From contig DYRX01000005.1 in the NCBI GenBank assembly GCA_020718525.1, positions 1-34,933 on the forward strand: DNA of 34,933 nucleotides, read 5' to 3'. Below, piece by piece: positions 4,654 to 34,786 of this stretch (position 1 is the stretch's first letter; every line of letters begins with the position of its first letter). A program made the translations under genes and the position numbers. The notes under the pieces were generated by a model. That model did not search any database. It had not been told where the DNA came from and saw only the letters and a list, made by a program, of their open reading frames with translations. Origin of the DNA: Victivallis vadensis. GTDB taxonomy: Bacteria > Verrucomicrobiota > Lentisphaeria > Victivallales > GWF2-50-93.

Positions 4654-4998
4654 ATGGTCATGAACATATCGGTTGACAAAAAAGGAACGGTTACGCTGAT
4701 CACGCTGACAGGAAAAATTGACTCGTCCAACTCGAAGGATTTGAAGACGAAGTTTTCCCAGCTCCGCGCCTCGCCCGACAATTACGTCATGGACTTCAAA
4801 GATGTGGAATTCATTGACAGTTCGGGTCTGGGCGCATTTGTCGCATGCCTGAAGAGCGCGCTCGAGACAGGCGGCAACATCAAGATCGCGAATCTTCAGA
4901 AAAAGGTTCGCATGGTCTTCGAAATAACGAGAATTCACAAGATTTGCGACATATTCGACAGCGTGGATGCGGCACTGGCCTCATACTCGCGGGCCTGA
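4654..4998 (+). CDS. STAS-domain anti-sigma factor antagonist (SpoIIAA/RsbV-like)
   Basis: 114 aa; FKDVEFIDSSGLGAFVACLK contains the canonical DSSGLG phosphoserine site; start may be 4660 (MNISVD, GGAG at 8 nt spacing). Confidence 0.9.
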   Translation: MVMNISVDKKGTVTLITLTGKIDSSNSKDLKTKFSQLRASPDNYVMDFKDVEFIDSSGLGAFVACLKSALETGGNIKIANLQKKVRMVFEITRIHKICDIFDSVDAALASYSRA

Positions 4999-5031: not shown

Positions 5032-6456
5032 ATGAAATGTGTAATCTCGCTCAATTTTTCCGGCTCCTCGTGGGCGACTTCTGTTTTTCCAGGCGCTTCT
5101 GCGCAGACTCTTAAAATAGCTAATAAAGCCTGGTGCGAGTATCTCCTCGACTTTTGCTTTGTCTCCTCCATAAAGGATGTCCGAATTCTCGTTGACGATG
5201 CCGGAGACAAGGTGGAGGATTATTTTTCCGACGGAATGAAGTGGGGACTCTCCATCTCCTACGGATTTTCCCGCGAGGGGGACGGCACGGACGAGATCAT
5301 CCTGAAAAACAGGGATTTCGTATCTGGCAATCAGCTTCTGCTGATCTCTGGTCCAGTCTTCATCAATTATTCTGCAAAGGCTCCAAAGAGCGTTTTTTTC
5401 CAAAAAACCGGACGGGAACTCCGTTCAAAGGACGGACTTGGTCGTCTCCTTCTTCTTGACATTTCATCGGACGGCAAAGTCCTTGAGCCGCCAAGTCTCT
5501 TTTCCCAGGAGGAAGCCGCCTTGGAAATTATGACAATATCCAGCGTCAAGGACTACTACGACGCCAACATGATGGTCATAAGGGAGAAAAGGGCGAACTT
5601 TGTGCTTCCCGGATACAGCAATGAAGACGGAGTCTATCTTGGGCAGAATGTTTCGACAAACAGGACAGCCCGTCTGGAAAAGCCCCTGATGCTGGGGGAC
5701 AATGTCGAGCTTGGCGCACTCTGCGTTTTGGGACCATCCGCGATAATCGGCTCGAATGTGATCATTGACGACAGCTCGGTGATTGAGAACTCCATCGTCT
5801 GCGACGGGACCTATGTGGGACGGGATTTGGACATATCCGGAAAAATCGTATCGCAGTCCAGTCTGATAGATCCTGAATCCGGTGAAAAATTCGTACTTGC
5901 AGACAAATTCATACTTTCCGGAGAGGCGATTTCAGAGTTCATGCTGAAGCTGAAAAAACTGCGTTCCTTCATAGCGGCGCTAGTCCTTGTCGTCGCCATC
6001 TGCCCTTTCTATCTGATATTTATCATATTTTCCAAAATTTTCGGCATTCTGGCGCCCGTCGAGAAGACTTACATCGCCTCTGATAGGAAAAGCAGGGCTA
6101 AAACTACGTTTTTCAAAGATCCTGACTCCTTTGCATCGAGACTCTTCTTCAGGCTTTCCTTGGACAAGTTCCCTCTTCTCCTCGAAGTGCTGAAGGGCAA
6201 TATTTTTGTCGCGGGCAACAGCCTTGCAGACTCGGACGAAGCAGGCGAGAAGTCTCTTGAAAATCTTCCGATCTACCTGCCGGGGGTTTTCACATACGCA
6301 GAGACTGTCTCCGAGTTTGGAGCCATCCCGCCGGAAGAAAGGATGATTCACGACATGTATTACAGCCACAGGCCGTCCTTGCTTCTGGATCTTAAAATTG
6401 TCCTGACAGTATTTTTCTCCAGATTATTCGGTCGCTTTTATCCTCATTCAGCGTGA
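5032..6456 (+). CDS. Left-handed beta-helix (NDP-sugar pyrophosphorylase-like) protein with C-terminal degenerate sugar-transferase-like domain
   Basis: 474 aa; hexapeptide-like LGDNVELGALCVLGPSAIIGSNVIIDDSSVIENSIV; C-terminal TM hairpin, then LSLDKFPLLLEVLKGNIFVAGNSL...LPGVFTYAE aligning by eye to the bacterial sugar transferase [21 protein letters not shown]...KPGITCTWQ. Confidence 0.7.
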   Translation: MKCVISLNFSGSSWATSVFPGASAQTLKIANKAWCEYLLDFCFVSSIKDVRILVDDAGDKVEDYFSDGMKWGLSISYGFSREGDGTDEIILKNRDFVSGNQLLLISGPVFINYSAKAPKSVFFQKTGRELRSKDGLGRLLLLDISSDGKVLEPPSLFSQEEAALEIMTISSVKDYYDANMMVIREKRANFVLPGYSNEDGVYLGQNVSTNRTARLEKPLMLGDNVELGALCVLGPSAIIGSNVIIDDSSVIENSIVCDGTYVGRDLDISGKIVSQSSLIDPESGEKFVLADKFILSGEAISEFMLKLKKLRSFIAALVLVVAICPFYLIFIIFSKIFGILAPVEKTYIASDRKSRAKTTFFKDPDSFASRLFFRLSLDKFPLLLEVLKGNIFVAGNSLADSDEAGEKSLENLPIYLPGVFTYAETVSEFGAIPPEERMIHDMYYSHRPSLLLDLKIVLTVFFSRLFGRFYPHSA

Positions 6457-6699: not shown

Positions 6700-7839
6700 A
6701 TGAGCGGATCAAAATACACTGTTTACGGCGGCTCAGAGATTGACACGCTGATTGAATCGCACATGAACAAGCTCGTTTCCGCCGTCTTGAAGGGCGGATC
6801 GGGAACGCTTTCGGCGATCGTTCTTGGGGGAGGCTACGGCAGAGGAGAGGGCGGAGTCAAAAAGATTGGCGGCAAGGATTTCCTCTTCAACGACTACGAT
6901 CTTTTTCTCATATCGAAGAATTTGAGCAGAAAAGAGAAGGCGAAGCAAAATGCGGCATTCAAGAAGGTCGCGCACAATCTTTCCTCCGAGTTCGGCATAG
7001 AGGTTGACTTCAGCCCCCTTAAAAATGAGTCGGAGCTGAGCTCGCTCGACTATGAAATGGTCTGGCTCGAAGCCAAACTCGGCCACGTCGTCCTTTGGGG
7101 CAATCAGAATGTCTTTGACAGAATTCCCAATTGGGATCTGAAAGATATGCCCCTGGAGGAGGCGGCGAGGCTTCTGATGAACAGGGGAATGGGAATCCTG
7201 CTTTCAAAAGGAAGGCTCGGACACGGGGACGAAGATGCGGAAAGCATGGAGTTTGTCGAGAGAAATGCCTGGAAGGCAATCATGGCGGCAGGCGACACCC
7301 ATCTAATCCTCAACCGCGCCTACGACTCATCATACAGAAAGCGCCTTGAAAACTTCAAGGAGCTTCCATCCGGCAAAGATTGTCTCGCACCCGACTTTGG
7401 CGCCTTCTATGCGAAATCCATCGGCTACAAGCTTCTTCCACCGGAAAATCCACCATCGAAACAGGATGCGTCAAGTCTTCTCGCAAAGGCAACAGAGTTT
7501 CTTCTCGCCTCTCAGATTGCCGTCGCATCGAGAATGGCGGGCAGAAAAATGGAACTCAAAGACCTGGCAGACTGCCCCCCCAACATATGCGCCTCGAAAG
7601 GTTTCAAGGGAATAGCAAAGAACATTGTCCTCAACGCGATGAAGTTCGGACCATTCCAGACGCCGTCCTCATTCCTGAAGCACCCGAGAGGAAGAATTTT
7701 TGCGGCGATTCCGTTTTTCTCCGGAGCAGTAGAATTCGATCCTCTAAAGCTTTCGCGTCTGCTCGGACTTCGCGGAACTGAAACGGACAGGACAGTCCTT
7801 TTCAACGCACTCGTCAAGCTTTGGGAGAGGTTTAGTTGA
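6700..7839 (+). CDS. Nucleotidyltransferase-domain (pol beta superfamily-like) protein
   Basis: AIVLGGGYGRGEGG...FNDYDLFLI NTase motif; likely start ATG 6700 after AAAAAGG rather than the 6523 extension that runs through intergenic sequence. Confidence 0.65.
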   Translation: MSGSKYTVYGGSEIDTLIESHMNKLVSAVLKGGSGTLSAIVLGGGYGRGEGGVKKIGGKDFLFNDYDLFLISKNLSRKEKAKQNAAFKKVAHNLSSEFGIEVDFSPLKNESELSSLDYEMVWLEAKLGHVVLWGNQNVFDRIPNWDLKDMPLEEAARLLMNRGMGILLSKGRLGHGDEDAESMEFVERNAWKAIMAAGDTHLILNRAYDSSYRKRLENFKELPSGKDCLAPDFGAFYAKSIGYKLLPPENPPSKQDASSLLAKATEFLLASQIAVASRMAGRKMELKDLADCPPNICASKGFKGIAKNIVLNAMKFGPFQTPSSFLKHPRGRIFAAIPFFSGAVEFDPLKLSRLLGLRGTETDRTVLFNALVKLWERFS

Positions 7840-9842
7840 TGGCAGAATCTCAGAAAAACAAAGCCGCGCCAATTACAGAAACGCCATTCGACTTCATAAA
7901 GATTTCGCCGAATGTCCTGCGCGTGACTTTGATGAAAAACATTGTCTGGATCATCCTCGCAGGCATACTTGGTGCGGGAATTGGCGCGGTTGCAAGCAAG
8001 CTGATGATAAAAAACAAATGGACAAGCAGATGCTCCCTGTACAAACTGCCACAGTCCGCCGAACTGCGCAAGGAAATACCTTCCCTCTACGAGCCGCCGG
8101 ATCTGAACACCGTAGTAGAGTCAATAAGGACGAGGGAAAACATACAAAAGGCCATCAAGCGCCTGGGAATGGACATATCGGTTGACGCATTCTACGGAAA
8201 GACCAAGATCCAGAAGCAGAAAAACAACAATCTCTTCACTATCGTGGCAGAGGACGAGGACAGGGAAAAATCCGCCCAGATAGCAAATGTCATGGCTGAA
8301 ATATTCCTTGAATCCTATGCGTCAATGATGCAGGGGTCTGCTAGAAAGCTCGAGGAGCAGTACATCAGCTCCGCCGGAACCATAAGGGCGGAAATGACCG
8401 ACCTCGAGAAGAAAATGCGCAAAATGCTATCTGACAAGGGTATAAACTCGATTGAAACCGAACTCGGAATGAACATACAAAAGGTCAAGGACATCGGAAT
8501 GAAGCTCCTGGAAAGCAGGGCGGCCGCCGAGACAGCCAGGATAAGGCTTCAGGATTTGGACATCGCAATTGCCAAAATGTCCCCTGATGTCCAGATTTCA
8601 TATGTTGTGACTCCGCCTGACGCAGGCCTTCTCAAACAGCTCGAGGCACAGCTCAACGAGCTCACACAGAAATTCACCGACGAAAATCCTAAAGTCAAAA
8701 GACTCCGCTCCGAAATCGAAGAGCTGAAAAAAAGAACCGTCAACCCGGGAAAGCCAAGCCCCGAGCAAGTCACATACGGAAGCAATCAGACCAGACAGAC
8801 TCTCGAAATAGAAAAGCTCAAGGTCGAGTCGGAGCTGAAGTCCTCCATGAAGAACATTGAAAGCTTCGAGCGCGAAGTGAAGGACATCAGAAAAAGCATT
8901 GACGGGATTTCATCCATGAACGAGGAATATTCGGAGCTTTCCAGGAAGCTTGATCTCAACAGGCAGACTTTGAGCAAGGTGGAGACAATGATCGCGGCAT
9001 CCGGACTCTCAGTCAAGCCTAACAGCCTGGACATCAAGATCTTCGAGCCGGCAGTTCCGCCCGCCTACCCAGACAGTTCGAAGCGGAAGCTCATAGTCAT
9101 CGCCGTCGGCGGGCTTTTCATGGGCTTGGTGGGTGCGCTGGCACTCGGCAGGGAAGTTCTGGATCTGACAGTCAAATCCGACTCCGATATGAGCGAAATT
9201 CTGCACGTCAAGAACCTGGGTGCCCTTCCCGACAGAGACGCAGTCAACATCTCGCTTTTCAACGTCTCCTTCCAGGTCGTCTTTGAAAACATGATGAACG
9301 AGCTGAAGAATGTCCAGCGCCCTGTAATTGTCGTCGGATCCGTCTCGAAGGAAGCCGGGAAGTCCCTCCTGATAAACGAGTGCATGAGGATCTTCAGGGC
9401 GAGAAACAAGACTGCCCTGATAATTTCAGACCCGAAAAACGCAGGCGCAGTTGAGAAGAACAGCATGGTCAACCACTTCGTCTATTCGAGACTTCCATTC
9501 GACGATTTCCACCCGACACTGCGGGGAGACGGAAGCCCGGGCGCGTTTTTCGAGCTGGACGAGACGACATTCTCCTACCCTATAGACGAAGAGCGCCTCG
9601 CCGCCTTCATCAAGGAGCAGAAGAGCTATGACATGATCATTTGGGAGCTCTTCGACTTCGACAGGAACAAAAGGCTTTTCTCTACGATAGCGAGACAGTC
9701 AGATCTCTTTGTTCTAGTTACGCGCTTCAGGAAAAGCAAAAAATTGGACTGCATAGCCTGCACAAAATTCTTGAAACTGCAGAACTGCCGGGACATTTCC
9801 GGAATCGTGAATTGCATCCACAGCGATTATTTCAACATTTGA
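7839..9842 (+). CDS. Wzc-like polysaccharide copolymerase with degenerate C-terminal ATPase domain
   Basis: TM near N-terminus, coiled-coil middle, PAVPPAYPDSSKRKLIVIAVGGLFMGL second TM, then IVVGSVSKEAGKSLLINE (Walker A-like); start TGATG overlap with upstream stop. Confidence 0.85.
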   Translation: MAESQKNKAAPITETPFDFIKISPNVLRVTLMKNIVWIILAGILGAGIGAVASKLMIKNKWTSRCSLYKLPQSAELRKEIPSLYEPPDLNTVVESIRTRENIQKAIKRLGMDISVDAFYGKTKIQKQKNNNLFTIVAEDEDREKSAQIANVMAEIFLESYASMMQGSARKLEEQYISSAGTIRAEMTDLEKKMRKMLSDKGINSIETELGMNIQKVKDIGMKLLESRAAAETARIRLQDLDIAIAKMSPDVQISYVVTPPDAGLLKQLEAQLNELTQKFTDENPKVKRLRSEIEELKKRTVNPGKPSPEQVTYGSNQTRQTLEIEKLKVESELKSSMKNIESFEREVKDIRKSIDGISSMNEEYSELSRKLDLNRQTLSKVETMIAASGLSVKPNSLDIKIFEPAVPPAYPDSSKRKLIVIAVGGLFMGLVGALALGREVLDLTVKSDSDMSEILHVKNLGALPDRDAVNISLFNVSFQVVFENMMNELKNVQRPVIVVGSVSKEAGKSLLINECMRIFRARNKTALIISDPKNAGAVEKNSMVNHFVYSRLPFDDFHPTLRGDGSPGAFFELDETTFSYPIDEERLAAFIKEQKSYDMIIWELFDFDRNKRLFSTIARQSDLFVLVTRFRKSKKLDCIACTKFLKLQNCRDISGIVNCIHSDYFNI

Positions 9843-9852
9843 CGAGGAGACT

Positions 9853-10980
9853 ATGAGCAAATCTGTTAAAAATTCTATTTTTATCTGCACTGTCTTTTTT
9901 TTCATCATTTTCCAGAACGGATGTAACGTTCCGGAGGGAGCAATAGACGCGTCCACTCTGCCTACGGAGGCTGAAGAAATCGCTGGTGGAACGCAAAACA
10001 ATGAGAAAATTAAAAAAGAGCTCGAGGAGCTACAGAAGCTCAAGACCGATGTCTACCGCTTCGCCCCGGGCGACAAATTCGATTTCAGGGTTTACGACAA
10101 CGAGGACATGACCTTCAACGGAGTGATTGTCACGCCGGATGGAAATGTCTCGATTCCCCTTGCCGGAGTTGTCCAGGTCGGCGGGCTTTCAATTGCCGAG
10201 GCACAGGCCGCCGTCGAGGAAAAACTGCGCAAATTTATACGCGACCCGCACGTATCGCTCATCCCGACTGAGATTTCTTCTTCAACATTTACAATCGTTG
10301 GAAAAGTCGGAAATCCAAACCGCTTCGCGATCACGCGGACAACACGGCTGACAGACGCGGTAGCGATGGCGAAAGGCTTTCTCACCGGACAGTACGACGG
10401 AAAAACCATAGAAATAGCAGATCTTGACAACGCCTTCATCGCAAGAAACGGAAAAGTCCTTCCAGTAAACTTCATAGAAGCCATAGAAAGAGGCAACCCT
10501 CTGCACAACATCCCCCTTGCCGACGGCGACTACATCTACATCCCGTCCTCCGTGAACGCGGAAATATTCATACTCGGCGAGGTTGTAGCCCCGACCCACA
10601 TTGGCTACCAGAACGGCATGACCGTCACAAGGGCGCTGACATATGCCAGAGGACTCCTCGAGGCTTCTTCCTCGACCATTCTTGTGATAAGAGGAAATCT
10701 TGCGACACCAAAGGTTTACGCGATTGACATACACGACGTGATGCGCGGGATGCAGAGAGACTTTGTCCTCAAGCCCAACGACATCATTTTTGCGCCCCGC
10801 GGAGCATTCTCCCAATACAACGTCGTAGTGGAAAAGCTCATGCCAACATTTGAACTTCTAAATCTGATTGCCGGACCTTTTGGAAACAACGCAATGACTC
10901 TCGCCCTTCCATCGTCTAGCGGAGACAGCGGAGGCGGTGGCGGCGGAAGCAGTGGTAACAGCAGTGGGAGCGGGAACTGA
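9853..10980 (+). CDS. Wza-like polysaccharide export lipoprotein (Poly_export/SLBB)
   Basis: Signal peptide with Cys lipobox (FQNGC); YRFAPGDKFDFRVYDNEDMTFNGVIVTPDGNVSIPLAGVVQVGGLSIAEAQ; SLBB-like repeats; Gly/Ser-rich C-terminus. Confidence 0.92.
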   Translation: MSKSVKNSIFICTVFFFIIFQNGCNVPEGAIDASTLPTEAEEIAGGTQNNEKIKKELEELQKLKTDVYRFAPGDKFDFRVYDNEDMTFNGVIVTPDGNVSIPLAGVVQVGGLSIAEAQAAVEEKLRKFIRDPHVSLIPTEISSSTFTIVGKVGNPNRFAITRTTRLTDAVAMAKGFLTGQYDGKTIEIADLDNAFIARNGKVLPVNFIEAIERGNPLHNIPLADGDYIYIPSSVNAEIFILGEVVAPTHIGYQNGMTVTRALTYARGLLEASSSTILVIRGNLATPKVYAIDIHDVMRGMQRDFVLKPNDIIFAPRGAFSQYNVVVEKLMPTFELLNLIAGPFGNNAMTLALPSSSGDSGGGGGGSSGNSSGSGN

Positions 10981-10998
10981 CAAGAGGAAAGCGGAGAG

Positions 10999-12390
10999 AT
11001 GGAGCTTAAATACATAGTTTTCGCAGTGTGCCTGCTTGGGATAGTCCCCTTCGCGTACGCTGTGGCTCTGCGCAACAAGATTGCAGAGAACATCGTCCTC
11101 TTCATCGCCATATTCTTCACATGCAGTCTCCTCGGAAAAATCAATTTTGTATCCATGGAGACATACCGGGGGACAGCGAAGGGATTTGAAATAACTCTCG
11201 TTGACATTGCCGCGCTCATTCTTTTTCTCCTGGTCCTCACCAGATCAAAAGAGCGAGCCCTGATTCTTATTCCGCCCTGCTCCATCCTATATCTGATTTA
11301 TTTCATCATCAGCTGGATTTCTGTAGTAAACGCCGAGCAGACAGTATACTCCTATTTTGAGCTCTGGAAGATGGCAAAGATGTATTTCTACTACTGGGTC
11401 ATGTCAAACTATCTGTGCTCGGAAGAAAATATAATGAAAGTCGTCAATATGATTCCGATTATAATAATTTATATCTTTCTGGTTGTGCTCGACCAGAAAT
11501 ACAGGATGCACCTTTTCCAGACAAACGGTCCACTGCCTCACCAGAATTCCCTCGTGATGTATATGATGATATTCGGCACAATCATGTTCGCCCTCCTTCT
11601 GAACGGAGACATTTCAAAATACAAGATCATGTTCCTGCTTCTGATAATGGCGATGGCTGCGGTCTGCATCGTCAGCACGCTTTCCAGAGCTGGTCTCATG
11701 TGCTTTGCGCTTTCCTGCACTATTGTCATGGGATTCTCGATGCTGAACGGACTTGATTCCAGAAAGATAGGTGTCACAATCCTGATAGTACTGGGGGCGC
11801 TTGGCATTCTTGCCAAGAGCATCAATACAATCATCGAAAGGTTCCAGACCGCTCCAGAACAGTCAGCTCAGACGCGTATAGATCTGGCTATCGCCGCCAA
11901 GAAAATGGCTGACGACAAAACATTCGGAATCGGTCTCAACAACTGGGGCATCAAGATAAATCCTCCCTATCCGTACAGCGATCACATAGAAAGAAAGGAC
12001 GATGAATTCAAGGAGGGCATTGTCGAGACGGTATATCTCCTTGTGGCGGCCGAGACTGGCTGGGCAAATCTGGTCGTCTTTCTTTTCTACATCGGAAAAT
12101 TCTATATTCTAAATCTGATAAACTATTTCAGGTTCAAGAAAAAGTCGCTGATGTTCATTTCAGCAGGACTTGCAGGCGGTCTTTTCGGCGTCTACTTCGA
12201 ATCAACTCTCGAATGGGTGCTCAAGCAGATGAACAACTATTATCAGCTCATGCTGGTATATGCAATGATATCTGCCATGACGGAACTTCACAGACGTGGA
12301 AAACTGGAACAGAGCGACGAGCAAGATGCAGAAACGCAGGAAGATGAAATCCCGCCTGCCCAAGCTGCGGAAGCATACAGCGGAGTTTGA
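10999..12390 (+). CDS. O-antigen ligase/polymerase (Wzy-like) membrane protein
   Basis: 463 aa multi-TM; STLSRAGLMCFALS and large periplasmic loop IGLNNWGI...; context of EPS cluster. Confidence 0.8.
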   Translation: MELKYIVFAVCLLGIVPFAYAVALRNKIAENIVLFIAIFFTCSLLGKINFVSMETYRGTAKGFEITLVDIAALILFLLVLTRSKERALILIPPCSILYLIYFIISWISVVNAEQTVYSYFELWKMAKMYFYYWVMSNYLCSEENIMKVVNMIPIIIIYIFLVVLDQKYRMHLFQTNGPLPHQNSLVMYMMIFGTIMFALLLNGDISKYKIMFLLLIMAMAAVCIVSTLSRAGLMCFALSCTIVMGFSMLNGLDSRKIGVTILIVLGALGILAKSINTIIERFQTAPEQSAQTRIDLAIAAKKMADDKTFGIGLNNWGIKINPPYPYSDHIERKDDEFKEGIVETVYLLVAAETGWANLVVFLFYIGKFYILNLINYFRFKKKSLMFISAGLAGGLFGVYFESTLEWVLKQMNNYYQLMLVYAMISAMTELHRRGKLEQSDEQDAETQEDEIPPAQAAEAYSGV

Positions 12391-12392
12391 AC

Positions 12393-12569
12393 ATGAACAG
12401 ACTTGTCGGAAAAATATGCAGGATATCCGCATTTGCGACAGGCATAGGCCTCCTTCTCGCCGCATTCTTTCTGACTCTCTACAAAATCAAATGCGCGATG
12501 GGGCTGGACTTTTTCCCGGAAATCCATCTCCGGAACATCATAGAAGAGATTCTGCCGCATGGAAACTGA
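12393..12569 (+). CDS. Small single-TM membrane protein (58 aa)
   Basis: MNRLVGKICRISAFATGIGLLLAAFFLTLYKIKCAMGLDFFPEIHLRNIIEEILPHGN; GGAG 7-8 nt upstream of ATG; sits between polymerase and flippase genes. Confidence 0.6.
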   Translation: MNRLVGKICRISAFATGIGLLLAAFFLTLYKIKCAMGLDFFPEIHLRNIIEEILPHGN

Positions 12570-12596
12570 AAATAAATCTTTGAACAGGAACAACTT

Positions 12597-14168
12597 ATGA
12601 GTCTTGCATCAAAAGAGGTTCTTCGGGGTACCATCAGCAACTACATACTGCTACTATCAAGAATCATATGCTCCATCTTCATGGCTAGGATACTTGTCGT
12701 CGGTCTCGGCGAAACCCTCTACGGCTTCTGGGGCTTCCTGTGGGCTGTCTTCGGATATTCCGTGCTTCTGGATTTCGGCTTCGGACAGACGATACAGAAA
12801 TTCACAGCGGAATCTGACGTTAAGAACGACATGAAATCCTTCAACAGCCTGGTCTCAACCGTGATGCTCGTCCTCTGCGCATTTTCCGTCGTCATTGCCG
12901 CGTCTTCCCTCTGCATCGCATATTTTCTGGATCATCTCGTCGCCGCCCAGCCCGGCGAAGGCGCCCTGGACATGAACTATCTGAAGATCTCTTTCGCCGC
13001 GTTCGGAGTCGGTGTCTCAATTGTCTTTCCAACGGGCATCTTTCCTGAAATTCTGGCGGGAATCCGCAGATTCGACATCAAAAATGCCATACTTGTGGTC
13101 AATGTCCTTGCGAATCTCGCAGGATTCTATCTGCTGATAAAATTCGGATATTCCCTGCTTTCCATAGCGCTTTTCACGGCGGGTCTCAATCTTGCGACGA
13201 ACATCGTGATGATCGTGATCATATCAAGGCTTCTTCCGGGCTTCCGGATATCCCCGTTCCTTGCGAATTTCGCGAAACTGAGAGAGATTTCATCCTTCAG
13301 CGCATATTCCTATGTCTGCACGATCTCCGACATGTTCATAACAAGGACAGACAGGCTCATCATCGGATATTTTCTTGGTATGTCCTCTCTCGGAGTATAT
13401 CAGATCGGAACAAGGCTTCCTGAAATGATGGAGAAGCTCACGACGCAGTTTCAGACCACGCTCGGTCCGATAGCCGCTTCACTCTACAAGTCGGGTGATT
13501 TCGAAAAATTGAGATGGGTCCTTCTGAGAAGCACAAAGATCTCCGCCTTCGTCGCCGGATATTTCCTCGTCGTGTTTTATCTTCTCTCACCGCAAATCCT
13601 TAAAATCTGGCTGAAGATCGAAGATCCCGAAGCCGTGAAAGTCACTTCCATATGCATCGCTTCAGTTTTCATCTCTGTGCTCTTCAGAAGCGTTCAGAGC
13701 AGGTTCATGCTGATGGCTGGCGAGCACAAGCATATTGCCCAGATACAGACAGCCTACGCAATACTGACACTTGTCCTGATGATCACGTCGGTGAAGTTTT
13801 TCGGCCTGCTTGGACTGCTCTACGGAGCTCTTGCGGCAAATGTCATCATAAGCGTATTCATAGAATTCCCCCTCGCCGCACGCCTCGGTAAAATGAGCGT
13901 CGGATATTATCTACGAAAAGTATATTTTCCTCTGCTGATTCCCATAGCACTCTGCGCGGGAGCGGTTTTCGCATTTCTTCAGATTCCAGGCCCGTGGAAC
14001 TTGCTGAGACTCGGAATCGCCTCGGTCAGCGCTGGAATTGTCTATCTCGCATCTGGATGGTTTATTTTTTTCAGCAGGGATGAAAAGTTGAAACTGCTTG
14101 ATATGTCGAAGCTTGCACCAGTCGTAAGGAAACTGAAGATCGGCGGATATCTTGGTCTTGGCGTTTGA
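12597..14168 (+). CDS. Oligosaccharide flippase (Wzx/MATE-MOP superfamily)
   Basis: 523 aa, about 12+ hydrophobic segments; LRGTISNYILLLSRIICSIFMARIL, FITRTDRLIIGYFLGMSSLGVYQIGTRLPEM. Confidence 0.9.
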   Translation: MSLASKEVLRGTISNYILLLSRIICSIFMARILVVGLGETLYGFWGFLWAVFGYSVLLDFGFGQTIQKFTAESDVKNDMKSFNSLVSTVMLVLCAFSVVIAASSLCIAYFLDHLVAAQPGEGALDMNYLKISFAAFGVGVSIVFPTGIFPEILAGIRRFDIKNAILVVNVLANLAGFYLLIKFGYSLLSIALFTAGLNLATNIVMIVIISRLLPGFRISPFLANFAKLREISSFSAYSYVCTISDMFITRTDRLIIGYFLGMSSLGVYQIGTRLPEMMEKLTTQFQTTLGPIAASLYKSGDFEKLRWVLLRSTKISAFVAGYFLVVFYLLSPQILKIWLKIEDPEAVKVTSICIASVFISVLFRSVQSRFMLMAGEHKHIAQIQTAYAILTLVLMITSVKFFGLLGLLYGALAANVIISVFIEFPLAARLGKMSVGYYLRKVYFPLLIPIALCAGAVFAFLQIPGPWNLLRLGIASVSAGIVYLASGWFIFFSRDEKLKLLDMSKLAPVVRKLKIGGYLGLGV

Positions 14169-14197
14169 AACAACACGTAATTCGGGGAGAATGGAAA

Positions 14198-15403
14198 ATG
14201 AAAGACCGCAAAGGTGGAAGGCTCAAGCTGGCGATAGTCACGAACCGCTTCTATCCGGAGGTCGGCGGCGCGGAGACAAACATATGGTTCCAGGCGAAGG
14301 AGCTGGCAAAAATCCACGATCTGACTGTCTTCTGCCCGAAAAGAATTGACGCCCCCTGGAAAGAAAGCATGGACGGATTCACGCTCATCAGGCTCTACGA
14401 CATTTTGAATCCGCTTTGCAGGACGCCCAATATCGCGACAAAAACACTTTCGCCCTCAATTCTCGCTAAAATCTTCTTTTCCCGCTTCGATGTCGTCATG
14501 TTTTTTCCTGCGCTCAACTACAACAACAAGCTGGCCTATTTGGCGGCTAAGCTTTCCGGCACCCCGATCATCGGCTGTTTCTTCGACTTCATTGACTATG
14601 CTGGACTGATCAAGAAAAACGGATCTGTCCCCGACGACATTCTTGAGAGGACTCATGTCAAAAGCCTCGACGCCAGGATACTTCGCGGACTCGATCATGT
14701 ATATGCGATCGCAGACAAGGAAATCGCGTTTCTTAAAAAATTCAATCCGAATGTCGAATATTCGCCAGTGCCTGTCCTGCTCGACGAATACTTGAAGGAA
14801 ACTCCGTCCTGCCGCGCAAAGTATGGCGTCTCGGAAAGCGACTTCGTATTTCTCTGCCTCGGAAGAGTCTCACAAATCAAGGGGCAGGATCTCGCGGTAA
14901 ACGCCTTCTGCTCCGCGTTCAAAGACAAACCCGACGCGAAACTCGTCGTTGTGGGAAGGCACGACTACGAGCCGTCCTTCACCGACGCGATGAAGAAAGA
15001 ATGCGCCGAAGCCGCTGTCCAGGATCGTGTGAAATTCACCGGAATGCTTGACAGGAGCGAAGTCCTGTCCTGGCTCCGCCATTCGGATGCGCACGTGATT
15101 CCTGTCCGCTTCATGAACTCCGGGGCGGTTGTTGTCGAAACCTGGGCGTCGGGAACCGCGGTCATTCAGAGCGACGTCGTGGATCCGAACCTTGTCGTGG
15201 ACGGCGAAAACGGATTCCTCTTCAAGAAAGGTGATGCAAAAGCTCTCGCGAATAAAATGCTTGAGGCATACTCTAAAAAATCAGAGCTTCCAAAAATGGC
15301 GGAAAAAGGCGCCGCCCTTGTAAAGGAGAAGTATACATACGAATATCTTATTGGCCTCTATCAGAAATCCTTCGACAGGCTACTCGCAGGAAAAACGCAT
15401 TGA
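14198..15403 (+). CDS. Glycosyltransferase family 4 (GT-B)
   Basis: LAIVTNRFYPEVGGAETNIWFQAKEL, FLCLGRVSQIKGQDLAVNAF, ETWASGTAVIQSDV; ATG 14198 preferred over TTG 14165. Confidence 0.92.
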   Translation: MKDRKGGRLKLAIVTNRFYPEVGGAETNIWFQAKELAKIHDLTVFCPKRIDAPWKESMDGFTLIRLYDILNPLCRTPNIATKTLSPSILAKIFFSRFDVVMFFPALNYNNKLAYLAAKLSGTPIIGCFFDFIDYAGLIKKNGSVPDDILERTHVKSLDARILRGLDHVYAIADKEIAFLKKFNPNVEYSPVPVLLDEYLKETPSCRAKYGVSESDFVFLCLGRVSQIKGQDLAVNAFCSAFKDKPDAKLVVVGRHDYEPSFTDAMKKECAEAAVQDRVKFTGMLDRSEVLSWLRHSDAHVIPVRFMNSGAVVVETWASGTAVIQSDVVDPNLVVDGENGFLFKKGDAKALANKMLEAYSKKSELPKMAEKGAALVKEKYTYEYLIGLYQKSFDRLLAGKTH

Positions 15404-15413
15404 TGGAGAATAA

Positions 15414-16433
15414 ATGAACGCGATAAAAAATCTTTCCCTTCGGACTGCGCTTGCGTTTACGCTCTGCGCCTTGCTGGGCGCCTGCTCGGATTCCGGCAAG
15501 GAGCAGAAGAGCGTCCAAAGCGACGTCGTGGTCATTGCCAACAAGCTGAACGGAGAGCTGAAAGAGATCAGAAAAGAGGCGGAACTCCTGGCAAAAACCT
15601 TCGAAGGATTCTATAAAAATCAAGACGAGCTTGCGTCGAAGGCAGTCAAGTCATCCTATGCGATGGCACCTAATGGCACATATTACAAGACAGTGAACGA
15701 CGGAGAGTCGGCTCTCTGGATTTCCGGCTACACGCCGATTACTGACGAAGTCATCAAAATCGCGCATTTGACCGAGGCCGGGGACAGCCATTTCAAGGAT
15801 TTGATCTCCAGACGCCCCGCCGCAATTCAGGTCTATTACAACGACAGAAACTGCATCAACAGGATCTATCCCTGGTTCGACGTGCTTTCCCAATATCAGC
15901 CTAAGATGAAGATCCCCGAGTTCAATTTCTACTATCTTGCAGATGAGAAGCACAATCCTGAGCGAGCCGGTGTCTGGATAATGGAGCCCTACATTGATCC
16001 GGCAGGAAGAGGCTGGATCGTTTCCGCCATTGCTCCGGTCTATCATGAAAAGCGCCTTGAGGGCGTCTGCGGAATAGACATCACAGTGCAGACCCTGGCA
16101 TCGAAGTATCTTTCACAGCTTGGCGCGGTATTCGCAATTTTCACGGACTCCGGCACTCTTGTCTCGGCTGACGAAAAGGCGATGGCGATCATGCGGATGC
16201 CTCCGCTCAACTCCCCAAAATACATGGAGGCGGTGAACAAGGATCTCTACCTGATGGAAACATACAACATTAGCAAATCGAGAAGCAAGGAAACAAGAAA
16301 ACTCGGGACAGACCTGATTGAGAAGAAGCTTTCTGAAACGTTTTTCGCTTCAGGAAATGATGAATACAAGGTCAGCTCGGCGAAAATATTGGAGCTTGGA
16401 TGGCTCCTTGTCTCGTTTGAACAGCAAAAATAG
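15414..16433 (+). CDS. Lipoprotein with Cache-like (PDC) sensor domain
   Basis: Lipobox LLGAC; SALWISGYTPITDEVIK, DRNCINRIYPWFDVLSQY, AGRGWIVSAIAPVYHEKRLEGVCGIDITVQTLA typical of Cache domains. Confidence 0.8.
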   Translation: MNAIKNLSLRTALAFTLCALLGACSDSGKEQKSVQSDVVVIANKLNGELKEIRKEAELLAKTFEGFYKNQDELASKAVKSSYAMAPNGTYYKTVNDGESALWISGYTPITDEVIKIAHLTEAGDSHFKDLISRRPAAIQVYYNDRNCINRIYPWFDVLSQYQPKMKIPEFNFYYLADEKHNPERAGVWIMEPYIDPAGRGWIVSAIAPVYHEKRLEGVCGIDITVQTLASKYLSQLGAVFAIFTDSGTLVSADEKAMAIMRMPPLNSPKYMEAVNKDLYLMETYNISKSRSKETRKLGTDLIEKKLSETFFASGNDEYKVSSAKILELGWLLVSFEQQK

Positions 16434-16449: not shown

Positions 16450-19400
16450 ATGAAGCTTGCGGACATTAAATTGAAGTTCTTATTGAGGGGCACACGGCTG
16501 AATGTCCTGCTCATGATCGTTGTCCTGGCAAGCCTCGCCGCCGCCTGCCTCTTTTTCATGAGAACGACATTCGAAAGAGAGATCGCCTCCGCCCAGGAAA
16601 AGACATTTCTGCTTGTCTCCACCCTTCGCAACGACGTCGAATCGGAATATGCGAGATTCGCAGACGAAATGCGCTACAAAATCTCCTACGCCCCCCTTTC
16701 CGCCCTCCTCGCAGACGAAGCTCCGGCCTATGACAAGATTCTTCCTCTGCGCAAGCTCTATTCCCTGGATCAGGACATCATATCAAAAATCTGGGTGCTC
16801 TCGCCGGACGGAAAAGGCCGCGCTATCACATGCGAAAAGAACAACTACTTCAATCTCTCTGAAATAGCCGAATATGCCCCATCGCCCTTCGTCAGCGACG
16901 GAAAAATGACGGAAGCCCTCGAATTTCCATGCTATGCGGTCGGCGGAGATCTCGCATACCGAGTCATAGTCGAACTCGATTACGGCAAGCTGGTCGGCAA
17001 GGAGATGAGCATGCTTTCCTCCATCAATCCCGATGCCTGGTTCTTCTACATGAAGCCTGCGGGCAGACCGGTCGAGGTCAGAAAATCCGGCAGTTCAAAC
17101 GCCTCCATAGCGATTGACTCCACTGCGAGAGTCAGAATATTTTCAGAAGTGTCCGCAGGCTACGACGGGAGCACCGAAAACAAGGCGTTCACAGGCGGAC
17201 GCGAGATTGATCTTGTATCATCCTATTCCCCACTCGGCAAAAATGCTGAAAAAGGCTGGATAATGGTCTCCCTTGACAAACAAAAGGTTCTCTCCTCAAT
17301 CGTAAGCGCAATCTTCAACGTCTCAATCATCTTCATTGCACTGCTTTCAATCATCGTCGCGGTCTCCTCATACTTCATATTCAGAATCAGGTCTTCCGGG
17401 AAAGCCCTCTGGGAAAGTCAGAGGAAATGGAGCTTCGCGATCGAAGGCAGTGGAGAAGGCGTCTGGGAATGGGATGCCGCCACAAGGAAGATCCATCTCT
17501 CGGGGCGCTCCAGAGAAATCCTATCCGCCGCCTCCGACGAGATAGAAGAATGGACATTGAACGCCCATCATGACGATGAAAAGAGAGTGAAGGACGCGAT
17601 ATCAACATGCATGTCTGGCGACGAGGGGCTCTACAACTGCGAATACAGGTTCAAGTGTTCGGACGGATCCTTCAAATGGATACTCGACAGAGGCATGATT
17701 CTTGAAAGAGACCAAGGCACGCCACTCAGGATGATCGGGACCGTCGCTGACATCAGCTCGAGAAAAAAATCTGAAGAAGAAATCCGGCGACTCTCTGAAA
17801 GGCTCGATCTTGCGATACGCGCCGCAGGCATTGGCGTATGGGACTGGGACATGGAAAAAAATCGTCTCATTTGGGATGACTGGACCCGCAAGCTCTACGG
17901 CATTGAGTCCGAAGATTTCCCAACGAAAATCGAGGACTGGTTTGAGATGATTGATCCTGCGGACAGAAAGCGCGTCAAGGCCGACATCGAATCGTCCAAG
18001 ACAAGGCGTCTGTATTTCAGCGACGAATTCAGGATAGTCGCCAGGGACGGAACGAAGAAATTCGTGAGATCCGAGGCGAAAGTCTTCCTGAACGAAATCG
18101 GAATTCCCTCAAGAATAGTCGGAGTGAGCTACGACATCACAAAAAGCAAGACGACCGAGAACGAGCTCGTTCACAATTCCGAGACTGCCAGCCTGATCGC
18201 AAGGATGTCCACCCACTTTATAAATATTGACTCCCCATCCATAAACAACGCCATAACTCTTTCACTGGGCTCGCTTTGCGCTCATCTCCGCATTGATGTC
18301 GTGAGAATTTTCAGATTTTCCGAGGACGACTCCAGCTTCACATGCACCAACGAATGGAACTCAATGGGGGCTTCGCACTCGATTCCGCGCAAAACCCTTC
18401 AGGCAAAAAATGAAAGCCATTGGATGCGGACGCTCAGAGAGTATAAAAACATTTTCGTCAAGGACTTCATGAAATCCGCTCCGCCAGACGCGAAAGACTG
18501 GAGCTTTCTTGAAGGAGTCCCCGCAAAATCGGCCCTTCTTCTCCCGCTTGCGTGGAGAAACAGGCTCGAGGGCTTCATCTGCTTCATGACAGTCTCTCAC
18601 GAATGGTCGCCGGGCGACGCCGAGCTCTCCCTTCTCCAGACGCTCGAAGATATTTTTCTAAGCTCCTTCAAGAGGGAGGAAATAGAAGTCGCACTCATAA
18701 AAAACCAGGAAAAGCTCAGGGAAAGCAACACAGAACTCAATTCCTGGAAGAGCAGAATTTCAAACGAACTGTCCCTCGCAGGCGCTCTCCAGAAAAAAAT
18801 CTTCAGACCAGATCCGAGAATCTCTGACGAGTCATGCTTCATGTGGGCGCACAAGCCTGCCATGGATGTTGGAGGCGACATCTTCGGAATTGAAAGTCTC
18901 AAGAACGGCCGCGTCTGCCTCTTCGTCGGGGATGTTTCCGGACACGGAGTAGGTTCCGCCCTCGTCTCGTTCATGATGAAGGCGATAGTCAAAGAGGCTA
19001 TTGACGACTATTCCGATCTGGGTCCGGCGAAAATCTGCAACGAGATCAACCGCCGCTACCTTGACTCGGTATCAAGCGACTTCTATGTCACATTTTTCAT
19101 AGGAATATTCAATCCTGCAGACTTTTCCTGGAACTGCATGAACTGCGGCCACCCCGAGCCGCTGATATTTACAGACTCCGGCAAATTTCTTGACTTTGAT
19201 CTTTCCAGCTCCGGCGGCGGACTCCCGATCGGAATGGGATTTTTCGGAAAAAACCAGTATTCGGAGACGGACGAATTCCGTTTCCTCACGCCACCCGGAT
19301 ATTCACTGCTACTATACACAGACGGAATAGTCGAATCCGAAAACACGGCAAGCGGGGAAATGTGCGACATTGAAACGCTGAAGGAAGTCGCCGGAAACGT

Positions 19401-19944
19401 CCTTTCCTCCAAGATGCTCGGAGATCCGGCGTCTGAAATCGTAGCCCAAGTATCGGCGAGGGGGTTTAACTTCGACCGCGACGACATGACAGTCATGTCC
19501 GCCGTCTTTCACGATCCGGCATCAATCTCGATGAAAAAGGAGATTAAGCCCAGCCTGGACGCGATTCAGTCTTTCAGCGACGAACTCGATACATATCTTT
19601 CCTCGATCGGCTGGAAAGAGGAGTCGGCATATGCGGCACACCTCCTCTGCGCGGAACACCTCAGCAACGTCGTCAAGCACGGCTTGATCAGCTCAGGAGC
19701 GCCCATATTGTTCATGATGAGAATCTGCGACTCGGGTACCGCCATTCTTTTCTCAGACCACGGCTGTGAATGGAATTGCGAAGCAAGGAAAGAATCGGAG
19801 GAGCCAAGGCTCGCCGAAGGCGGCTATGGTCTCGGAATCATAAGAAAATTGTCCGATGTCTCCGTCTTCTACAGAAAAGATGGAATCAACCACGCATATT
19901 TTGTGATTTCAAAAGATGCGTGCCCAAGCTTTGACGGCGAATAG
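16450..19944 (+). CDS. Multidomain SpoIIE/PP2C-type phosphatase: TM-extracytoplasmic sensor-TM, two PAS, GAF, PP2C (SpoIIE), C-terminal HATPase
   Basis: PAS: GVWEWDAATRKI..., GVWDWDMEKNRLIW; SpoIIE: DVGGDIFGIESL..FVGDVSGHGVGSALVSFMMK..YTDGIVES..RDDMTVM; HATPase: LCAEHLSNVVKHG N-box, SDHG, GGYGLGIIRKL; ATG 16450 preferred over 16318, which overlaps the previous gene. Confidence 0.9.
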   Translation: MKLADIKLKFLLRGTRLNVLLMIVVLASLAAACLFFMRTTFEREIASAQEKTFLLVSTLRNDVESEYARFADEMRYKISYAPLSALLADEAPAYDKILPLRKLYSLDQDIISKIWVLSPDGKGRAITCEKNNYFNLSEIAEYAPSPFVSDGKMTEALEFPCYAVGGDLAYRVIVELDYGKLVGKEMSMLSSINPDAWFFYMKPAGRPVEVRKSGSSNASIAIDSTARVRIFSEVSAGYDGSTENKAFTGGREIDLVSSYSPLGKNAEKGWIMVSLDKQKVLSSIVSAIFNVSIIFIALLSIIVAVSSYFIFRIRSSGKALWESQRKWSFAIEGSGEGVWEWDAATRKIHLSGRSREILSAASDEIEEWTLNAHHDDEKRVKDAISTCMSGDEGLYNCEYRFKCSDGSFKWILDRGMILERDQGTPLRMIGTVADISSRKKSEEEIRRLSERLDLAIRAAGIGVWDWDMEKNRLIWDDWTRKLYGIESEDFPTKIEDWFEMIDPADRKRVKADIESSKTRRLYFSDEFRIVARDGTKKFVRSEAKVFLNEIGIPSRIVGVSYDITKSKTTENELVHNSETASLIARMSTHFINIDSPSINNAITLSLGSLCAHLRIDVVRIFRFSEDDSSFTCTNEWNSMGASHSIPRKTLQAKNESHWMRTLREYKNIFVKDFMKSAPPDAKDWSFLEGVPAKSALLLPLAWRNRLEGFICFMTVSHEWSPGDAELSLLQTLEDIFLSSFKREEIEVALIKNQEKLRESNTELNSWKSRISNELSLAGALQKKIFRPDPRISDESCFMWAHKPAMDVGGDIFGIESLKNGRVCLFVGDVSGHGVGSALVSFMMKAIVKEAIDDYSDLGPAKICNEINRRYLDSVSSDFYVTFFIGIFNPADFSWNCMNCGHPEPLIFTDSGKFLDFDLSSSGGGLPIGMGFFGKNQYSETDEFRFLTPPGYSLLLYTDGIVESENTASGEMCDIETLKEVAGNVLSSKMLGDPASEIVAQVSARGFNFDRDDMTVMSAVFHDPASISMKKEIKPSLDAIQSFSDELDTYLSSIGWKEESAYAAHLLCAEHLSNVVKHGLISSGAPILFMMRICDSGTAILFSDHGCEWNCEARKESEEPRLAEGGYGLGIIRKLSDVSVFYRKDGINHAYFVISKDACPSFDGE

Positions 19945-32741: not shown

Positions 32742-34077
32742 TCTCGATCGCATAGAATCGAATCTGAGCGATTCAGTTCAGGGGACATTTCGCGCCTCTG
32801 CAAAAAAAATCGTCTCCGTCTCCTGCAGAGGAATGGCGCTAATCCTCCGTAGAATCTTCGAAATCGCCATCTCGCTCCCTTTGATTTTCCTTTTCACCCT
32901 CCCGATTGGGATTGCGAAATTCGCAAAAAGAATTTTCACAGGCAAGCCGGTCTTTGAAAAAAAAGCCGTCTATGGAAAGAACGGAGCGCCACTCGAGATC
33001 GTCTTCTTCAATTCCAGGCGTTATTTTGTCAGAAAGGCTTCATTGTTCGTCTACGTTCTAACGGGAAAAATCGCCCTTGTCGGCATTGGAATAGAAGATT
33101 ATGGAAGCAGACCGGATCTTCCGGAAAACGCCTATCTCCTCAGGGACAAGCCTGGCATTTTCAATCTTTGGTTTGTCAGGGAAAGCGGAAAGATAGGGCA
33201 TGAGGGGAAAATTGGGACTGAGTGGGAGTATGTATTTAGAAGGGACCTCTCAAAGGACATAGTTCTAATTCTCAAGAGCATTCCTGCGGCTCTTATGAGA
33301 AGCGAGGGAAGCGCATACCGTCCGGAAATTAATCTGCTGAACGTCAAATTCAGAAATATGCGGATGCTTGAGGCTCTGGAATTCATGGAGAAATCCATAG
33401 TTTCCGGAGATCGTAAAAAAGTATTTTTCATCAATCCGGACTGTCTCAACAAGAGCGTTTCCGACAGAGAGTACGCAGATAATCTCGCGAAGTCGGACAT
33501 TGTCCTTCCGGATGGTTCAGGAATCAATCTCGCGTGCAAGATAATGGGGACCCATCTCATAGAAAACGTGAACGGAACCGACATGTTCCCGTTCATCTGC
33601 CGCCTTTCCGCGGAAAAAAGCTTCAAAATATTCCTTCTCGGAGCCAAGCCAGGAATTGCCGACGCTGTCAGAAAAAACTGCGAGAGCAACTATCCCGGGG
33701 TGAAATTCTGCGGAGTCAGGGACGGCTATTTCGACAAAGCCAAGGAGTCTGCTAAAGTCATTTCAGAAATAAATGAAGCCGACCCGGATTTTCTTCTTGT
33801 CGCCTTTGGCGCACCATACCAGGAGAAATGGATAACGGAGCATTTTTCCGCCCTCGGGGCAAGAGTCTGCATTGGTGTCGGAGGGCTCTTCGACTTCTAT
33901 TCCGGGAGAATTCCCAGAGCGCCGAAATGGATGCGCGAACTTGGATTGGAATGGATATTCAGACTCCTTCAGGAACCGGCCCGCATGTGGAAAAGATATG
34001 TGATCGGCAACCCGCTTTTTGTGTTCAGAGTTCTTAAATGGAAAGCATTTATGGAGGATTCCAATGGAAATAAATGA
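32716..34077 (+). CDS. Degenerate sugar-transferase-like N-terminal domain fused to WecG/TagA/CpsF (GT26) glycosyltransferase
   Basis: C-terminus VLPDGSGINLACKIMG, NGTDMFPFI, FGAPYQEKWI, GVGGLFDFYSGRIPRAPKWMRELGLEWIFRLLQEPARMWKRYV (GT26); N-terminus LTGKIALVGIGIED...LRDKPGIFNLWFV resembles the sugar transferase tail; ATG 32716 preferred over 32617. Confidence 0.85.
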   Translation: MIQERRKNDLDRIESNLSDSVQGTFRASAKKIVSVSCRGMALILRRIFEIAISLPLIFLFTLPIGIAKFAKRIFTGKPVFEKKAVYGKNGAPLEIVFFNSRRYFVRKASLFVYVLTGKIALVGIGIEDYGSRPDLPENAYLLRDKPGIFNLWFVRESGKIGHEGKIGTEWEYVFRRDLSKDIVLILKSIPAALMRSEGSAYRPEINLLNVKFRNMRMLEALEFMEKSIVSGDRKKVFFINPDCLNKSVSDREYADNLAKSDIVLPDGSGINLACKIMGTHLIENVNGTDMFPFICRLSAEKSFKIFLLGAKPGIADAVRKNCESNYPGVKFCGVRDGYFDKAKESAKVISEINEADPDFLLVAFGAPYQEKWITEHFSALGARVCIGVGGLFDFYSGRIPRAPKWMRELGLEWIFRLLQEPARMWKRYVIGNPLFVFRVLKWKAFMEDSNGNK

Positions 34078-34786
34078 GAGACGGAACAGAGAGGAGATGA
34101 TTGACAAGTTCATCTCCGCCCGCCGCAAGGACAAACTGCTCCCTTCGGGACTTAAGATGGTGGCGTGGAAGTCAACTGTCGCATTATCATACTTTCTCAA
34201 GCGCGCAATTGACATCCTCGTATCATCCACGGCGCTTTTCATCGCTTCGCCATTCTTCACCCTTCTTGCCATCGCGATCAAAATCGAATCGCCAGGTCCT
34301 CTCATCTTTTCTCAGATCAGAGTCGGGAAAAACGGACGGCACTTTAAATTTTTCAAATTCAGATCCATGGTTCAGAACGCGGAAAAACTAAAGGACCAGC
34401 TCAAGCAGGACAACGAGTCAAAGGACGGCGTGATATTCAAGATGAAGAAAGATCCGAGAATCACGAAGATTGGCGCTTTCATACGAAAATTCAGCATAGA
34501 CGAACTGCCACAGCTTTTCAATGTTCTGATCGGAGACATGAGCCTGGTAGGTCCCCGCCCTCCCCTGCCCCGCGAAGTCGCGGAATACACGCTGGAAGAC
34601 CGCAAGCGCCTTCATGCCAAGCCTGGCATCACATGCACTTGGCAGATATCTGGACGAAGCGACATCCCATTTAAGATTCAGGCCGAGCTGGACAAGGAAT
34701 ACATACACAGCAAGAGCTTCTGGAAGGACATGAAAATTCTTATTCTTACCGTTCCGGCAGTCATCACCGGAAAAGGCGCATATTGA
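34064..34786 (+). CDS. Undecaprenyl-phosphate sugar phosphotransferase (bacterial sugar transferase family)
   Basis: LKRAIDILVSSTALFIASPFFTLLAIAIKIESPGPLIFSQIRVGKNGRHFKFFKFRSM, IRKFSIDELPQLFNVLIGDMSLVGPRPPLP, KPGITCTWQISGR; ATG 34064, 14-nt overlap. Confidence 0.95.
   Translation: MEINERRNREEMIDKFISARRKDKLLPSGLKMVAWKSTVALSYFLKRAIDILVSSTALFIASPFFTLLAIAIKIESPGPLIFSQIRVGKNGRHFKFFKFRSMVQNAEKLKDQLKQDNESKDGVIFKMKKDPRITKIGAFIRKFSIDELPQLFNVLIGDMSLVGPRPPLPREVAEYTLEDRKRLHAKPGITCTWQISGRSDIPFKIQAELDKEYIHSKSFWKDMKILILTVPAVITGKGAY

Follow-up and report, generated by a model that had tools for sequence, protein, structure and literature searches.

A predicted one-component, membrane-anchored partner-switch regulator in an exopolysaccharide cluster of Victivallis vadensis, apparently derived from an in-frame kinase-regulator gene fusion

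Partner-switch proteins that carry the kinase and the phosphatase in one chain are already known, namely Rv1364c, HsbR, CrsR and SypE. These are the closest described systems to the protein analysed here, for which a preliminary description of this DNA had named SpoIIAA/AB/E and RsbV/W/U as models; it does not represent a novel combination of SpoIIAB with SpoIIE. In Rv1364c of Mycobacterium tuberculosis, RsbU and RsbW domains are combined in a single polypeptide, as they are in our protein. Rv1364c has an N-terminal PAS input; unlike our protein, it contains its own STAS domain and no transmembrane sensor, and it works within the SigF network. In HsbR-HsbA of Pseudomonas aeruginosa, which serves biofilm control, and in CrsR-CrsA of Shewanella oneidensis, a PP2C domain precedes a GHKL kinase/anti-sigma domain within one chain and a STAS protein is the partner (PMC6482189); this domain order is found again in our protein, with a putative STAS partner. 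The SypE-SypA pair of Vibrio fischeri resembles what we propose below, since SypE combines serine kinase and phosphatase functions and targets S56 in a STAS protein from a polysaccharide cluster (PMC4517449). Its output is biofilm, which is promoted by unphosphorylated SypA, and the target of SypA is unknown (PMC4517449). Unlike our protein, SypE shows the order kinase-REC-phosphatase (PMC10120452) and, as a response regulator, receives its input through a phosphorelay. Finally, partner switching by SiaABC of P. aeruginosa and BgrUVW of Sinorhizobium meliloti affects exopolymer or aggregation, comparable to our proposal, but their kinase and phosphatase are separate proteins and their output is a diguanylate cyclase.

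The stretch of DNA analysed (the window, 34,933 nt) is the entire contig C547 of a MAG of 4.35 Mb, which is 91% complete and consists of 592 contigs. According to a Pfam scan of the window proteins, the gene of interest and a STAS gene, which are 11 kb apart, both sit in an exopolysaccharide (EPS) cluster. It encodes a nucleotidyltransferase, sugar-transferase hybrids, Wzz-like, Poly_export and Wzy_C proteins, a flippase, many glycosyltransferases and, at 34019-34786, a sugar transferase, and the EPS setting claimed in the preliminary description is thus confirmed. The open reading frame and its limits had also been given correctly; the ATG at its start leads to 1164 aa, and a TTG further upstream would lead to 1208 aa. 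We propose, with a probability of about 0.72, that this protein regulates the EPS cluster by partner switching, as a one-component system anchored in the membrane, and that it arose by in-frame fusion of a kinase gene and a regulator gene. The features of the locus are listed in Table 1.

Table 1. Coordinates of the fused gene, its predicted domains and the neighbouring genes in the window
Feature	Position	Strand	Remarks
STAS protein, putative substrate	4654..4998	+	putative phosphosite S56 at 4819-4821
Hexapeptide / sugar-transferase hybrid	5032..6456	+	directly downstream of STAS
EPS machinery	7836..15403	+	gene order identical in G006
Wzz-like	7836-9842	+	
Poly_export	9853-10980	+	
Wzy_C	10999-12390	+	
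Flippase	12597-14168	+	
GT4	14165-15403	+	
Lipoprotein with Cache-like domain	15414..16433	+	16 bp upstream of fusion gene
Predicted fusion of a transmembrane sensor with a PP2C phosphatase and an RsbW-like kinase	16450..19944	+	1164 aa
Two hydrophobic segments and the extracytoplasmic sensor region between them	16471..17397	+	segments at residues 8-42 and 278-316; hydropathy
Two PAS domains	17428..18126	+	Pfam PAS_3/PAS
GAF-like region, sub-threshold	18274..18645	+	16.3 bits vs cut-off 22.4
Proposed fusion point within coiled-coil linker	18706..18729	+	QEKLRESN, residues 753-760
SpoIIE/PP2C phosphatase domain	18877..19503	+	metal ligands D810, D828, D958, D1011/D1012 intact
HATPase_c_2 (RsbW/SpoIIAB-like Ser kinase) domain	19555..19869	+	N-box E1069/N1073/H1077; G1 box D1103-x-G1105; G2 box G1125/G1127

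The sensor region, the two PAS domains (PAS_3 twice, 2e-28), the SpoIIE/PP2C domain and the C-terminal HATPase domain named earlier were all recovered, while the GAF domain stayed below threshold in our protein as well as in its relative at locus L087 of the genome G006. The SpoIIE domain (residues 819-1018; 7.5e-32, 111 bits, cut-off 25) comes with the conserved metal-binding aspartates of SpoIIE/RsbU-type PP2C phosphatases. The HATPase_c_2 domain (residues 1036-1140; 1.5e-7, 31.9 bits, cut-off 27.4) has the E and N of the N-box, the DxG of G1 and the GxG of G2, as expected for a serine kinase of the RsbW/SpoIIAB type. The box-like motifs noticed before could be assigned to individual residues. 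Most of these residues and of the PP2C aspartates do not vary among 16 relatives, and D1103 as well as G1105 is kept in at least 90%. The presence of both domains with conserved catalytic residues supports the earlier view that a predicted kinase and a predicted phosphatase reside in a single polypeptide. Residues 746-1164 were modelled with AF2 (pLDDT 85); the top fold match was 3ke6, the RsbU-RsbW crystal structure of Rv1364c, and the PP2C of SiaA was likewise among the fold matches. With phmmer, the HATPase domain matched no PDB entry, whereas the fold search of the model did find matches. The extracytoplasmic region is 49% identical to the sensor of the G006 relative over 254 aa; its AF2 model, built from two sequences, reached a pLDDT of 39 and was not used. 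The lipoprotein with the Cache-like domain is conserved in G006 (63% identity) and may bind the ligand read by the sensor.

The STAS protein matches PF01740 (5.4e-19) and the anti-sigma antagonist family TIGR00377, and RsbV and SpoIIAA are its matches in the PDB. It contains the motif D55-S56-S57-G-L-G, which corresponds to the phosphorylatable serine in the DS[ST]GLG motif of RsbV/SpoIIAA-type proteins. The intact phosphosite described previously was corroborated by an alignment of 16 STAS sequences, in which S56 is invariant. This predicted site has the same residue number as the phosphosite of SypA (PMC4517449).

In the mechanism that we infer for this locus, two neighbouring genes, one for a histidine kinase and one for a REC-PP2C-HATPase response regulator, would have fused in frame, with loss of the HisKA/HATPase_c core and of the receiver. 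The extracytoplasmic/PAS/GAF-like sensor would then act on the PP2C domain via a continuous coiled coil, probably as a dimer; in RsbU, it is dimerisation via such a linker that activates the PP2C domain (PMC12143880). A signal would shift the balance between phosphorylation of Ser56 by the C-terminal HATPase and its dephosphorylation by the PP2C domain, and the sensor would set this balance directly, with no phosphorelay. Free or phosphorylated STAS would in turn permit or block EPS production through a partner.

To place the protein among its relatives, a profile of its PP2C-HATPase part was searched in the order (137 genomes) and in a sample of the phylum (388 genomes). The group had 47 members in 42/137 genomes of the order, where the next group scored near 150 bits, and was present in 80/388 genomes of the phylum sample. 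Its 99 sequences represent 98 proteins, one gene being split in two. The check for a receiver covered nearly all group loci and found this domain in 97 of the 98 proteins of the GTDB phylum, with the window protein as the sole exception. The relatives thus share the full REC-PP2C-kinase order of HsbR and CrsR, while in our protein a membrane sensor takes the place of the receiver. It would work like HsbR and CrsR but lacks their N-terminal receiver, which is present in its nearest homologue in G006. The type of switch is known, and the fused form is unique among the 98 related genes examined. In the open-access papers searched, we found no description of this module in Verrucomicrobiota.

The genomic neighbourhood of these relatives bears on the output of the switch. 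In the phylum, a STAS gene was located within the fetched stretch for 60 of the 99 group sequences. Its other classes typically show the gene order REC-PP2C-HATPase, sugar transferase, STAS, hexapeptide hybrid. BacTr was found upstream or downstream of STAS in 25/60 loci and the hexapeptide hybrid directly downstream of STAS in 24/60 loci, as in the window. Since sugar-transferase genes flank the STAS gene in many loci, these enzymes are candidate targets, and the hybrid encoded next to STAS in the window is a candidate output. This hybrid starts like a nucleotidyltransferase and also contains hexapeptide repeats and the C-terminal half of a sugar transferase of the bacterial type. We suggest tentatively that throughout the GTDB phylum Verrucomicrobiota the switch gates EPS synthesis directly, STAS acting on the sugar transferases encoded adjacent to it, and that here a two-component relay has collapsed into a one-component transmembrane serine kinase/phosphatase by a swap at the coiled-coil linker.

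Alternatively, the partner switch could act on an alternative sigma or anti-sigma factor encoded elsewhere, and the EPS genes would be controlled only through transcription, comparable to CrsR-RpoS and HsbA-FlgM. The third domains of HsbR and CrsR bind RpoS (PMC6482189), and our genome does contain sigma-70-type factors, one of them in a 258-aa frame. However, no factor of the SigB/F/G type scored above the model cut-off in the genome, and none of the Pfam-scanned proteins of the window is a sigma factor, in line with the preliminary description. Moreover, the STAS gene adjoins sugar transferase genes in many loci, and we consider a sigma-dependent output less likely. A partner of the RpoS, FlgM or HsbD type was not identified for our protein, and a diguanylate cyclase was not detected among the scanned proteins of the window.

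What the preliminary description had missed is that, as judged from its sequence, the protein appears to be a derived form in which a histidine kinase sensor is fused to a REC-PP2C-HATPase response regulator. The best relative within the order is found in G006, which belongs to the same family, and it matches the window protein in two pieces. Locus L087 of G006 shows the order of the window (STAS, hexapeptide hybrid, Wzz, export, Wzy, flippase, GT4 and Cache lipoprotein), and the single window gene corresponds to two adjacent genes there. They encode a 1061-aa histidine kinase (PAS_3 twice, a weak, sub-threshold HisKA, and HATPase_c) and a 589-aa regulator of the structure Response_reg-SpoIIE-HATPase_c_2. 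Residues 1-760 of our protein are 51% identical to the former and residues 761-1164 are 57% identical to the latter. The two parts meet in frame at QEKLRESN, with histidine-kinase-like sequence before and response-regulator-like sequence after this point. An E-x-L-R coiled-coil motif at the crossover is common to both G006 parents, and the DNA alignment indicates the same point. The HisKA/HATPase_c core and the receiver of a two-component system, both present in G006, are absent from our protein, and the window gene appears to be an in-frame fusion of the two parental genes minus these parts. FastTree placed the window protein as sister to the G006 regulator with a support of 1.0, and by parsimony the fusion is thus the derived state. 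A fused ancestor with a later split in G006 was dropped, because the receiver is kept in 97/98 group members.

The fusion is known from one MAG contig. Misassembly of this MAG, with separate histidine kinase and REC-PP2C-HATPase genes in the true genome as in G006, would agree with the receiver in all 97 other group members and with the number of contigs. It is nevertheless improbable, considering that the join is in frame and falls exactly in the homologous coiled coil, that the longest exact repeat common to the G006 parent genes over the crossover stretch is only 9 bp, and that neither the lost kinase core nor the lost receiver has a close copy elsewhere in the 91%-complete genome (best identities 41% and 25%). 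Coiled-coil linkers were proposed to allow sensor exchange between PP2C phosphatases and histidine kinases (PMC12143880), and the structure of the window gene resembles the outcome of an exchange of this kind.

The pairing with the STAS protein, which had been based on co-location alone, is now backed by conserved linkage and by co-occurrence at the levels of order and phylum. The comparison across genomes that had been proposed as a check showed that in the order (137 genomes) 35/38 genomes with a close STAS relative carry the PP2C-HATPase, compared to 7/99 of the remaining genomes (Fisher p about 4e-22, phylogeny ignored). Moreover, 26/47 PP2C-HATPase genes of the order lie at most 20 kb from STAS, usually among EPS genes, and 17 lie within 2.5 kb; in genus g28 they are found on separate contigs. 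The window thus shows PP2C followed by HATPase together with a putative cognate STAS protein, as in HsbR and CrsR, this relation being supported by genome context. A pairing of STAS with standalone RsbW-like kinases was dropped, since these STAS/PP2C-HATPase loci yielded one weak match only. It is very improbable that a different kinase (the RsbW-like protein of C545 or C132) acts on the STAS protein and that the HATPase of the fusion is merely regulatory: the genome does have two strong standalone RsbW-like kinases, but the one on C132 adjoins its own STAS gene, the STAS gene of the relatives goes with the REC-PP2C-HATPase gene and not with standalone kinases, and the kinase boxes of the fusion protein are intact.

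If the locus is read as a fused partner switch, it is of interest for several reasons. It would provide a natural before-and-after pair for the coiled-coil linker proposal (PMC12143880), in which the sensor of a histidine kinase was transferred to a PP2C-kinase protein and the phosphorelay was removed, at one syntenic locus. Further, the data point to a widespread partner switch within polysaccharide clusters of an under-studied phylum. Last, the targets of SypA-like STAS proteins may become approachable via their constant neighbours.

Some additional observations concern related genes. Elsewhere in the genome, partner-switch genes are present on contigs C132 (STAS, HATPase, SpoIIE), C545 (HATPase, SpoIIE) and C578 (STAS, SpoIIE). 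A piece at locus L151 seemed to be a receiver-less group member, but this was apparent only, as the gene is split into two open frames. At locus L129 (G122:C171, 4516-6741), a receiver-less 741-aa PP2C-HATPase adjoins a STAS gene; it was rejected as a group member, since it belongs to a different, lower-scoring partner-switch group (149 bits). Longer relatives with open frames of 640-942 aa were considered as further fusions, but all those tested keep the receiver, and what some of them have added in front of it is an Hpt domain or another receiver instead of a sensor. An Hpt domain precedes REC-PP2C-HATPase at L115 (7950-10088), L116 (7730-9838), L123 (7279-9285) and L111 (1576-4158), suggesting a longer phosphorelay in some lineages.
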